This document shows, piece by piece, positions 54,503 to 57,793 of a stretch of DNA of 64,000 nt; position 1 is the first letter of the stretch, and every line of letters starts with the position of its first letter. The position numbers and the translations under genes were made by a program. The notes beneath the pieces are model-generated. The model saw only the letters and a list, made by a program, of their open reading frames with translations. It had not been told where the DNA came from and ran no database searches. The stretch is taken from assembly GCF_016107395.1 (NCBI RefSeq), contig NZ_JAAIKO010000034.1, positions 1 through 64,000 of the forward strand, in the 5' to 3' direction. Source of the stretch: Streptomyces fildesensis. GTDB lineage: Bacteria > Actinomycetota > Actinomycetes > Streptomycetales > Streptomycetaceae.

Positions 54503-54930
54503 GGTGATCGCTCCTTCGTCGAGGTCGTGGAGCGGCCGGTTCGCGGCCTCTCGTGCCCCTGGGACGGAGCCGGCCGCACGTTCTCGACATCCCGCGCACG
54601 AATTCTCCTGGAGGCGGCCGCGCAGGAGTACGCCGTCTACGGTCGGAGCCTGGGGGAGGTGTACTGGCAATGCGTGCCGCTCCGTCGGTTCAGCGCGCGC
54701 CGCTGGCAGGCCCAGGGCCACAGCGATGTGGGAACGGCGCCGCCGCATCGCCGAGGACGGCGGTGCCCGCCTGCTCGTGGACCTGGCCGAACTGGCCCGC
54801 CCACAGGTCATGACAGATACCGCCGGGATCACGGCGGACCTGGCGGACCACGGCCGTACGGGCACGCCCGACGCTGGAAGCCGGTGTGCCCGGTGCATGC
54901 TGCCCGATGCGCTGTTGATGGAGGAAGGAG
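54503..54930. other. Intergenic stretch, nothing recognised
   Basis: About 430 bases between the PPOX gene and the lanthipeptide terminator. No second precursor peptide was found in any frame. Some frames are open but lack coding character. Confidence 0.35.
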
Positions 54931-54957
54931 CGGACCGTCGGGCATGCCGACGGTCCG
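54931..54957 (-). terminator. Terminator of the lanthipeptide operon
   Basis: CGGACCGTCGG (54931-54941) and CCGACGGTCCG (54947-54957) form a perfect 11-bp stem with a 5-nt loop, 8 bp after the precursor stop codon. Confidence 0.8.
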
Positions 54958-54964
54958 CCACCGA

Positions 54965-55093
54965 TCACATGGTGGTGGTGGTCGGGTTGGTCCACAGGCT
55001 TTCGTGGATGCTGAAGCAGGGGGGCCAGAAGGCCCCTTCCTGTTCGGCGTCGACCTCGACGGTGAGTTCCTGCAGAGCGAGAATCTGGTTCAT
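54965..55093 (-). CDS. Class III lanthipeptide precursor peptide (unusual core)
   Basis: A 42-residue peptide encoded 12 bp after the synthetase stop, ATG 55093 with AAGGA overlapping that stop codon region. Leader: MNQILALQELTVEVDAEQEG, carrying the LxLQ-type helix (ILALQ, residues 4-8) that class III synthetases recognise, then an acidic stretch. Core from about residue 21: WPPCFSIHESLWTNP, followed by four Thr and Met. Ser28, Ser32, Thr35 and Thr38-41 are candidates for dehydration, but the only Cys (26) precedes all of them, so the usual Ser-x2-Ser-xn-Cys labionin cannot form. A ring from Cys26 to a later dehydro-residue, or an uncyclised dehydrated peptide, is possible. Too short for standard gene finders. 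Confidence 0.75.
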   Translation of the reverse strand: MNQILALQELTVEVDAEQEGAFWPPCFSIHESLWTNPTTTTM

Positions 55094-55105
55094 ACCGGCG
55101 TTCCT

Positions 55106-57793
55106 TCACTTTCGAGAGGGGACCTCAGGGTGGATGGGATGCCCGTGGTCCAAGGTGAACAACTCGTCCTCGGGGCCGTGCAGGACACGTTGCAGTGCCA
55201 GAAGCACTCCTGCGGCGCCCCAAGTCAGGTCGGCGGTGCATCGCATGCCGCCCGCGCCGAGGTAGCGGACACCCTGGCCATGGGGCTGGGCGTGTTTCAG
55301 CAGTCCGGTGGCGACCCGTACGGCGGCTTCACGGTCGGTCGGCCGGCCGGTCAGTTCGGCGTGCTCGGCGAGAAAGTAGGTCAGCCCGGCAAGTCCTGTG
55401 GACCAGCCCGGTTCCATGGCGCAGGTCTTCCTGGCATCGGCGACGAGCAGCGGCAGTGCCGCGACGCAGCGGTCGTCCGGCGAGGTCGCCACATAGCGGG
55501 TGAGGACCGTAGCCACGCCCGCCGAGCCGACGGACAGGTAGGGCATGGCACGCCTGATCACGGCATTGTCGGCGAAGGACAGGCCTCCGTCGGGCAACTG
55601 GAGCGCGCGGTCGAGTTCTTCGTGGATCAGGTGACGGCCTGCTGTGAGGTAGGAGGTCCGACCTGTTGCGTCGGCCAGTTGGTGCAGGAAGAGGGCAAGG
55701 CCGGAGCGGCCGTGGAACAGCCCTCTGGCGTCGTGGTCGCCGAGGGTCGGCACCAGGTCGGTGGTGCGCACGATCGCGTCTCCGGCTGCCGCGGCCAGCT
55801 CCAGGTGCCGGTTGTCGCGTGTGCGCCGGTGCAGGGCCAGCCAGCTCAGGCCGATTCCGGCCCGGCCGTCGGCCAGTGTGGTGGAGGTGCGGGTCAGGGG
55901 ATGGTTCTCGGCGGTCTGCAGGAGTTCGGTCGCCTCGTCCAGGCGGCCGAGCTGCGCCAGGACCCGGGCGATGCCTGCTGATCCCGCGTTCAGGCCGGGT
56001 GGCAGTTCATCGCGCAGTGCCAGGGAGTCGACCAGTAATCGCTTCTTGATCTCCTCAGGGATGGGCACGCCCGCCCGGTGCAGGGCGTGTACCACCCCCG
56101 AGGTTCCGTAGGCAACGCCGACGGTGTTGGTGTGGAATGCCTGGGGTGAGGGTGGGAAGACCCAGTCGGATCGACGGGTGTCGGCCGCATCGAGCAGTCC
56201 GATGGCTACCCTCGCGGCGAGATCGGCGAGGCAGCCTTCGGGATCGGCGTCCACGTCGGACGGGTCGGGCAATGCCGCGGAACTGCCGCCGTCCGTACGC
56301 TGGAAGGCGGTCGCGCGAGCCCACAAGTCCGCCGGCACTGCCGCAGTGGCAGTCAGATCACGTCGCAACAGCGCGAGTTGGGACGATTGACGCTCCGCTG
56401 CTCCTTGGAGGGGTGGAGCGAAGAGGGACAGCGTGAGTGCGGCCATGGCGTACCGGTCGTGCAGGAGCGGGTCCGTGTCGGCGTCGGCGAGGCCGCGGGG
56501 GAGGGTGAACCCGGGGGTGCCCATGGCGGCCGCCGGCTGAGTCAGCGGTGTGGCGGCCTCGAAATCGATGAGTCTGGCCCGCAGGTCGGCGGTGACGATG
56601 ACGTTGGCGGGACTGAGGTCCCCGAAGCGGTAGCCCCGGGAGTGAAGGTGGGAAAGGGACTCGTCCAGGCTGCGCAGGATTTGGCGGCAGGCCTTGAAGT
56701 AGCTCGCGGAGTCGCGGTTGGGCCACTCGGCCTTGGTGGTGGGTGAGTTCCGTGCCACCCAATGGTGCAGCGAGATGCCGTCGACGAACTCTGTGACCAG
56801 GAAGTCGTGTTCCCACTCGGTGAAGTGGTCCAGGGGCTGCGGGCATACCCCGGGGGCCGCCGCGTGGACGGCGGTGAGGACGTCGTATTCGCGGCGCAGT
56901 CTCTGCCGCGCGCTGACGCCGTCCCAGGTATAGCCGTTGTGGGCGCGTGCTTCCTTGATGAAGACAGCGCGTCCGGTGCGGCGGTCCACCGCCTGATATG
57001 CCCCTCCGGCGTTGCTGGGCTGCAGTACCTTGGCGATCTCGTAGTGGCGGATGACGATCGGCCCGGAGTGCGGTGCGGGCTCCTGGGCGACGAAGGGATC
57101 GGTGACGCCGTCGGGAAGGATGAACACGGGTCGGCGTTGGTCCGGCACGTCGCGTCCGAAGCCGTCACGGATGACCGGTTCTCTGCTGCCGTCCAGGCGT
57201 AGCCGGCTGCGGTGGCTGAACGCGCCGTAGCGGTAGTGGACGGTCCGAGAATCCCGGTAGCGGCGGTCGGACAGGATGTACGGGCCCTCCTCGCCCTCCA
57301 GCGCGGCCGAAAGGACGGCCAGGAGCCGGTGGGCCGTCTCGGTGTCCTGCGGGTAGAGGGCGCAGAACTTGCCGGCCTGTGCACGGTCCGCGTGCTTGTG
57401 GTGCAGTGCCAGGAAGAACTTCTGGGCGCTGACGTGCTTGAACGGCACCCGCTCAGCGAAGCAGGTATGTGCTACAGCGTCGAGGACGTCCTGTGTGCGG
57501 TCCAGGCGCGCGGACACATGGATCTTCCAGCCTTGAGCGGCCCGTCGGAGAGAGGGGTGGCTCCACGCCGTCCAGATGTCCTTGCCGGTGCTCAGCCATC
57601 CATCGGCCACCTGCGCAGGGGCGAGCCGCTGCCCGGTGTCGCTGATGGTTGCCAGCGGGGCGTAGAACTCCTGACCCGCAAGCGCCATACCGATGGCGTC
57701 GAGCAACGGATCCTCCTGAGGGTCGAACGAAGGTGGGCAGAGTGGCGGGTGGGAAGGATCTTTGGGAACCAGTGGCATGTCGTTCAGTGGCAT
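55106..57793 (-). CDS. Class III lanthionine synthetase
   Basis: An 895-residue three-domain enzyme. Residues 1-235: lyase-like domain. About 250-470: Ser/Thr-kinase-like domain with glycine loop at 261-266, Lys280 (VFIKEAR), catalytic Asp392 and Asn397 in GDLSPANVIV, and Asp410 in LIDFEA. About 550-895: LanC-like cyclase barrel. The zinc ligands of class I, II and IV cyclases are absent: GWSTGLAG replaces the W.CG motif and MRCTADLTWG replaces CHG, which assigns it to class III (LanKC). It phosphorylates and eliminates Ser/Thr in the precursor and then cyclises. ATG 57793 is chosen (57778 also possible); in-frame codons further upstream look non-coding. Followed directly by the precursor gene. 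No transporter or leader peptidase is adjacent. Confidence 0.9.
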   Translation of the reverse strand: MPLNDMPLVPKDPSHPPLCPPSFDPQEDPLLDAIGMALAGQEFYAPLATISDTGQRLAPAQVADGWLSTGKDIWTAWSHPSLRRAAQGWKIHVSARLDRTQDVLDAVAHTCFAERVPFKHVSAQKFFLALHHKHADRAQAGKFCALYPQDTETAHRLLAVLSAALEGEEGPYILSDRRYRDSRTVHYRYGAFSHRSRLRLDGSREPVIRDGFGRDVPDQRRPVFILPDGVTDPFVAQEPAPHSGPIVIRHYEIAKVLQPSNAGGAYQAVDRRTGRAVFIKEARAHNGYTWDGVSARQRLRREYDVLTAVHAAAPGVCPQPLDHFTEWEHDFLVTEFVDGISLHHWVARNSPTTKAEWPNRDSASYFKACRQILRSLDESLSHLHSRGYRFGDLSPANVIVTADLRARLIDFEAATPLTQPAAAMGTPGFTLPRGLADADTDPLLHDRYAMAALTLSLFAPPLQGAAERQSSQLALLRRDLTATAAVPADLWARATAFQRTDGGSSAALPDPSDVDADPEGCLADLAARVAIGLLDAADTRRSDWVFPPSPQAFHTNTVGVAYGTSGVVHALHRAGVPIPEEIKKRLLVDSLALRDELPPGLNAGSAGIARVLAQLGRLDEATELLQTAENHPLTRTSTTLADGRAGIGLSWLALHRRTRDNRHLELAAAAGDAIVRTTDLVPTLGDHDARGLFHGRSGLALFLHQLADATGRTSYLTAGRHLIHEELDRALQLPDGGLSFADNAVIRRAMPYLSVGSAGVATVLTRYVATSPDDRCVAALPLLVADARKTCAMEPGWSTGLAGLTYFLAEHAELTGRPTDREAAVRVATGLLKHAQPHGQGVRYLGAGGMRCTADLTWGAAGVLLALQRVLHGPEDELFTLDHGHPIHPEVPSRK

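Follow-up and report, generated by a model that had tools for sequence, protein, structure and literature searches.

A short locus in Streptomyces fildesensis raises the question of whether a class III lanthipeptide synthetase can close a ring toward the C-terminus of its substrate. The locus lies in a stretch of 64,000 nucleotides (contig NZ_JAAIKO010000034.1, positions 1 to 64,000; here called the window, whose numbering we use) and consists of lanKC, which encodes the synthetase, and lanA, a precursor gene of 42 codons plus stop. Unlike known class III lanthipeptides, the precursor has a core without the pattern SxxSx(2-5)C, and its only Cys stands N-terminal to a Ser pair, as C-x-S-x3-S. 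We regard the pair as probably a minimal class III lanthipeptide locus and, with moderate confidence, propose that LanKC dehydrates Ser28 and Ser32 and that Cys26 attacks toward the C-terminus, which would give a reverse lanthionine or a reverse labionin.

The lanKC-lanA gene pair

The 895-amino-acid (aa) LanKC (55106..57793; this and all other features described here are on the minus strand) matched NF038151, the NCBI model of class III synthetases, with 755.6 bits (cut-off 575). It unites in a single protein the three parts by which a class III synthetase is recognized, namely a RamC_N lyase domain (aa 56-241, 57071..57628; PF25816, 220.5 bits), a Ser/Thr kinase domain (Pkinase, aa 262-469, 56387..57010; PF00069, 48.6 bits) and a LanC-like cyclase domain (LANC_like, aa 637-873, 55175..55885; PF05147, 43.6 bits). 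Alignment to the ThurKC chain 8sao showed that all eight lyase residues named as important in the available part of PMC10604976 are conserved, with chain numbers taken as those of the paper minus 3, an offset that we deduced. The kinase motifs FGDLSPANV and DFE are present in the same alignment, the zinc-ligand positions are occupied by S754, S798 and T799, and H694 aligns with ThurKC D667. An earlier reading of the DNA from its letters alone, here the sequence-only reading, had called the enzyme a LanKC with kinase motifs and without zinc ligands, and the model match, the Pfam domains and the ThurKC alignment bear this out.

A 12-bp spacer with an AGGA stretch resembling a ribosome-binding site (55094..55105) separates the lanKC stop from the start of lanA (54965..55093), whose translation is MNQILALQELTVEVDAEQEGAFWPPCFSIHESLWTNPTTTTM. 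The peptide carries the leader recognition motif ILALQ at aa 4-8 (55070..55084) and the putative crosslinking motif of the core, C26-F-S28-I-H-E-S32, at 54998..55018. Coordinates, spacing, sequence and residue numbers (C26, S28, S32, T35, T38-41 and M42) were confirmed as the sequence-only reading had given them.

Because a query with the single precursor against 35 genomes (its own and 34 of the same genus) matched only the window itself, we used profiles and LanKC as queries. A profile of 21 homologous precursors, with the window row excluded, was run against every stop-to-stop frame in the whole window with 20 or more codons, 1,246 in all, and the lanA product was its sole match (E 3.5e-12). 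Among 16 LanKC relatives in genome contigs, a precursor lies just downstream in 15, and the sixteenth (L014) ends at the contig edge; in the wider branch described below, a frame of this type adjoins LanKC in 24 of 25 loci, the 25th again being L014. This was the check that had been proposed from the sequence alone, and its outcome was favourable: beside homologous LanKCs lie ILALQ precursors whose core has [PF]CxS. A spurious 42-codon frame, with the true substrate encoded elsewhere, would agree with the NCBIfam precursor models, which stay under their cut-offs (lanthi_III_a, 17.4 bits against 22), and with ratios of nonsynonymous to synonymous change (dN/dS) only moderately below 1. These were 0.46 in the core and 0.64 in the leader of the PPCFSVAWS subfamily of precursors and 0.23 in the leader of a second subfamily, in whose seven core codons there were no synonymous changes. 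As proof of coding, such codon statistics are weak; the sole profile match and the 24 adjoining frames nevertheless leave a spurious frame with a probability close to nil. We are certain of the gene pair and of its conservation.

A branch of LanKCs with Cys-first precursors

In a quick tree search, the LanKCs with Cys-first precursors lay on one branch of 24 of the 66 rows, with a value of 100 in the Shimodaira-Hasegawa-like approximate likelihood ratio test (SH-aLRT). Left out of the tree were L014 (contig end), L068 (short) and L070 (a second synthetase, from the window's own genome), as well as L062, L064, L080 and L081, which were taken as copies of L005, L012, L009 and L015, respectively. 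By the best tblastn segment, members of the branch are 57-65% identical to the window LanKC and all other fetched LanKCs 32-48%; over the whole protein, the nearest group outside the branch is 41-50% identical.

A LanKC score of more than 1,070 bits was reached in 13 of 394 Streptomycetaceae genomes, and the best score among the rest was 787. The precursor profile matched 16 of the 394 at E 1e-3 or better, including the same 13, in a search that scored 19 candidates per genome and may have missed some. The remaining genomes are G200 and G208, with Cys-free ILALQ peptides, and G037, without a leader peptide. Among 396 genomes sampled from the phylum, a search at E 1e-150 or better gave no further LanKC, and a plasmid search at E 1e-100 or better gave one match (33.6%, Deinococcus).

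The pattern C-x-S-x3-S is present in all 31 precursor genes from 24 loci, which are all the frames with an ILALQ-type leader in these loci; none is without the motif. Loci L004-L019 were reached through LanKC, and L057-L065 through precursor matches, so that the motif in the latter is not independent of the search. Twenty-seven of the 31 precursors have a single Cys, and a count that forbids an inner Cys gives 30/31, since L011 has a second Cys inside the motif. The pattern SxxSx(2-5)C, in contrast, occurs in 0/31 of these precursors and in 42 of 53 at other LanKC loci, 6 of the 53 having no Cys. The comparison loci are a non-exhaustive set of 40 (26 of intermediate and 14 of lower similarity) plus L066-L068, and the 42/53 concerns 30 of these 43, the leader pattern having recognized no precursor in the other 13.

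In an alignment of 22 precursor rows, invariance outside the leader is confined to Cys26, Ser28 and Ser32; within the leader, L5, A6, L7, Q8 and L10 are invariant and I4 is nearly so. The core residues surrounding Cys26, Ser28 and Ser32 vary, and Pro precedes Cys (Pro25) in 20 of the 22 rows. Both the class III leader motif and the order of Cys before the core Ser, seen in the window peptide by the sequence-only reading, are therefore conserved, with the proviso that Cys precedes all core Ser/Thr only if Thr11 is assigned to the leader; the Trp- and Thr-rich tail of the window peptide is not conserved.

At Cys, Ser and Ser, the codons are TGC, AGC and AGC in 31/31 precursors, and AGC thus accounts for 62/62 of the fixed Ser codons vs 32/60 for the remaining Ser of the same peptides. 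Because AGC and TCN codons are two steps apart, this count, taken over precursor rows related by descent, fits an unbroken retention of Ser.

Four kinds of core have the motif: WPPCFSIHESLWTNPTTTTM in the window, PPCFSVAWSISDIFPEPM in many Streptomyces, FCISSGWSDWSIHTA together with FAPCFSIVGSSITVHTQ in Streptacidiphilus jeojiense, and a FPCFSIYASSFVDNDTY-like kind in single genes or triplets in the genus coded g14. L004 is a further intermediate. Gene arrangement also differs among loci. In L005 and L062, the same lanKC is flanked by a Cys-first precursor upstream (FAPCFSIVGSSITVHTQ) and another downstream (FCISSGWSDWSIHTA), and in L057, L058 and L061 three tandem Cys-first precursors stand behind one LanKC, the third being of a distinct type, PC[LF]S[IV]FASHYYETL, that is kept in all three loci.

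Separately, L066, L067 and L068 each have one to three copies of Cys-free, class III-like precursors at most 450 bases after LanKC, with MTQILALQGL-like leaders and cores that mostly resemble SHWS..AH.R.EAPV. Their LanKCs, 33-34% identical to that of the window, are a LanKC branch with thiol-free substrates that perhaps uses His.

Ring direction and rival products

We infer dehydration, ring closure, ring direction and leader removal, as well as any bioactivity of the product, and picture the course as follows. The ILALQ leader helix would dock on LanKC, as in ThurKC, and the kinase and lyase would turn Ser28 and Ser32 into dehydro residues, and probably also some of the Thr at 35 and 38-41. 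The calculated mass of the unmodified, untagged precursor is 4777.24 Da, which becomes 4741.22 Da after two dehydrations and 4651.17 Da after seven (18.01 each). At the metal-free cyclase, Cys26 would add to a dehydroalanine (Dha) that lies C-terminal to it, Dha32 being the most plausible, and so form a lanthionine of reverse direction; a link between Cys26 and Dha28 is improbable because its ring would hold one residue only. The leader would then be cut by a protease encoded elsewhere, and trimming would perhaps halt at the Pro before Cys. The calculated mass of unmodified PPCFSIHESLWTNPTTTTM is 2161.98 Da.

If the enolate left by addition to Dha32 were captured by Dha28, a reverse labionin would form, with five residues in the thioether ring and three in the carbacycle. 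Five is the top of the canonical x(2-5), and the three-residue gap between Dha28 and Dha32 compares with two in labionin. A reverse labionin of this kind, spread over at least four core kinds in Streptomycetaceae, is a tentative proposal. We know of no characterized enzyme that makes a thioether-carbacycle crosslink of reversed polarity.

Because the invariant core is limited to Cys26, Ser28 and Ser32, the alignment argues for a crosslink among them and against a peptide that is only dehydrated and leaves its Cys unused. We consider it likely that Cys26 takes part in a crosslink, and if this is made to a conserved Ser, the ring direction is reversed. The sequence-only reading had offered either a reversed ring or a dehydrated, uncyclized or differently processed product; the three invariant residues favour a ring and speak against a peptide that is dehydrated and uncyclized. 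A LanKC that only dehydrates, leaving Cys26 as a free thiol or disulfide in a linear dehydropeptide, is in our estimate unlikely. It would suit a metal-free cyclase with variable positions, the Ser at 798 of the window enzyme, where 23 of 24 branch rows have Y, F or H, and the Thr-rich tail of the window peptide, but a free thiol needs no fixed spacing to two invariant Ser, and the LANC-like domain is retained across the branch in the rows used for the tree.

Several observations, beyond the moderate purifying selection on codons, weigh against a reversed crosslink. C-x-S-x3-S is no exact mirror of S-x2-S-x(2-5)-C, since the Ser-Ser spacing is one residue longer, and it is found, too, in 2/53 precursors of other LanKC loci. 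Conversely, a looser canonical pattern is met in 2/31 branch precursors (45/53 of the others), and in 30 of the 31 one or more Ser/Thr lie between the leader and Cys, at a place that is not fixed. These last two counts, with the known use of Ser before Cys by class III enzymes, are what would speak for a thioether of canonical direction, formed from Thr11 in the window peptide and from Ser in TEPEAYSLPPC-type precursors elsewhere. With no conserved upstream Ser/Thr column, none at all in the third precursor of L061 and SxxSx(2-5)C in 0/31, we hold such a ring to be very improbable.

The enzyme, too, offers points on both sides of a reversed crosslink. Eighteen LanKC columns have a residue that is shared by 23 or 24 of the 24 Cys-first rows and is rare in other LanKCs. 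They include R644, W651 and R690 of the cyclase, each 24/24 in the branch; other LanKCs mostly have A/L/S/T at 644, H/L at 651 and T/A/P at 690. That these three residues set the ring direction is a guess. At the five positions that were studied in the cyclase of ThurKC (here T639, H694, S754, S798 and T799), no residue is both fixed in and unique to the branch, which counts against a reversed crosslink. H694 is present in 24/24 branch rows and also in 23/42 others, and position 754 is Ala in 22/24 branch rows and 9/42 others, the window enzyme having Ser.

A Cys that becomes N-terminal, or nearly so, on leader removal might instead serve in metal binding with His/Trp, in N-terminal acylation or in thiazolidine chemistry. 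The Pro before Cys in 20/22 rows could halt trimming there, and noursin, according to the portion of PMC10206099 available, is a LanKC peptide able to bind copper. His, however, is not conserved in the Cys-first peptides, and enzymes for acyl or oxidative tailoring do not recur among the neighbours that were examined, so that this fate of Cys26 appears improbable.

Neighbouring genes and known systems

Downstream of lanA, a hairpin with a perfect 12-bp stem (54930..54958; arms 54930-54941 and 54947-54958) lies in a 53-nt stretch with a minimum free energy of -29.2 kcal/mol (z -4.96). The sequence-only reading had described an 11-bp-stem terminator; the hairpin is there, with a stem one pair longer, and we call it terminator-like only, since it is followed by UCCUUCC instead of a U-run.

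Neighbour genes were called by a rule of thumb on third-position GC content (GC3). No transporter or protease was found near the window pair among 10 scanned of the 11 other genes in 19.5 kb, a 141-aa frame being unscanned, and none common to Cys-first neighbourhoods was found among the scanned neighbours, which do not include every copy; this, too, tells against the proposed reading. In the 31 loci compared, again with not every copy scanned, large AAA/LuxR-type regulators recur in 7, a GAF protein and a nucleotide-cyclase/AAA protein in 4 each (L004, L058, L062 and L063) and an S8 peptidase in 3 (L004, L059 and L062); none of these is at the window locus. The S. fildesensis genome has ten matches to M1 peptidases, the family of AplP. 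Removal of class III leaders by a protease encoded elsewhere is usual, as stated in the available part of PMC8960859.

The same genome has a second LanKC/LanL-like synthetase at C449:270141-272609 (331.7 bits, below the cut-off), a DUF4135 (LanM) protein at C449:129527-130705 and a stretch resembling a LanKC N-terminus, with one internal stop, at C63:27288-27647. We rejected a LanM partner for the window pair: in this genome DUF4135 is found on contig C449 only, and the window is on C271. Elsewhere, a LanM stands beside the Cys-first LanKC in L008, L011 and L065. In L008 (2417-5948) and L065 (13292-16165), LanM is accompanied by a common Cys-free peptide (...PWTTGSLTLF) ending VDTPWTTGSLTLF or VDVPWTTGSLTLF, which was chosen from the listed small frames because it is present in both; L011 reaches the contig end there. 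LanM and this peptide may form a two-component system with the Cys-first pair.

The window pair shares with class III systems of the SapB/AmfS, labyrinthopeptin and andalusicin/ThurKC types the LanKC lyase, kinase and metal-free cyclase, the LxLQ leader, a short precursor beside the synthetase gene and, as in most of them, the absence of an adjoining protease gene. Classes I and II include rings in which Cys precedes Ser/Thr, for example in cinnamycin. The thioether direction proposed for the window peptide is like that of these rings, which are formed by LanC or LanM cyclases that depend on zinc rather than by a LanKC that lacks metal. For other classes, the accessible text of PMC11251773 gives Cys before Ser/Thr as 'occasionally C*[ST]'.

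That 2024 survey (PMC11251773), in the same text, also describes, as 'subfamily C', six peptides that have one Cys each and a predicted 'reverse labionin'-like motif, printed CxSxxS, and that belong to Streptomyces clusters with type II and type III synthetases (LanM and LanKC) and a Cys-free peptide. The Cys-first family resembles it in the single Cys before Ser, the type III synthetase and, in L008 and L065, LanM with a Cys-free peptide. It differs in having CxSxxxS in 31/31, one residue longer than the printed motif, and the window locus has no nearby LanM. Compared with the printed motif and description, the PPCFSVAWS group is very probably subfamily C. LanM and LanKC clusters with Cys-free LanM peptides are also mentioned in the part of PMC7268733 available. 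The family is thus partly foreseen (PMC11251773, as far as its accessible text goes) and not wholly undescribed: the suggestion of an undescribed subfamily fails in part, on the 2024 prediction, and survives in that the core strings have no occurrence in the main texts searched. Among the literature searched, only PMC11251773 has 'reverse labionin' and 'lanthipeptide' together.

Of the precedents that we met, noursin and LanKCHbt come nearest to a LanKC branch in which cyclization has changed, as is proposed here; noursin has a His-to-Dhb crosslink in addition to a labionin that joins Ser3 and Cys15 (PMC10206099, available part). Cys is last in noursin, whereas here it precedes Ser28 and Ser32, and His is not conserved.

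Without ring formation, the fixed C-x-S-x3-S would call for another explanation, one that is equally surprising. If Cys26 does close toward the C-terminus, LanKC cyclases are not tied to a single ring direction, and enzymes of neighbouring groups, with an identity of 41-50% for the nearest, would make opposite rings from otherwise similar leaders. The control of ring direction, and of labionin vs lanthionine, in a metal-free cyclase would then become directly testable, and the family would make a new peptide scaffold accessible through short systems with a single enzyme.

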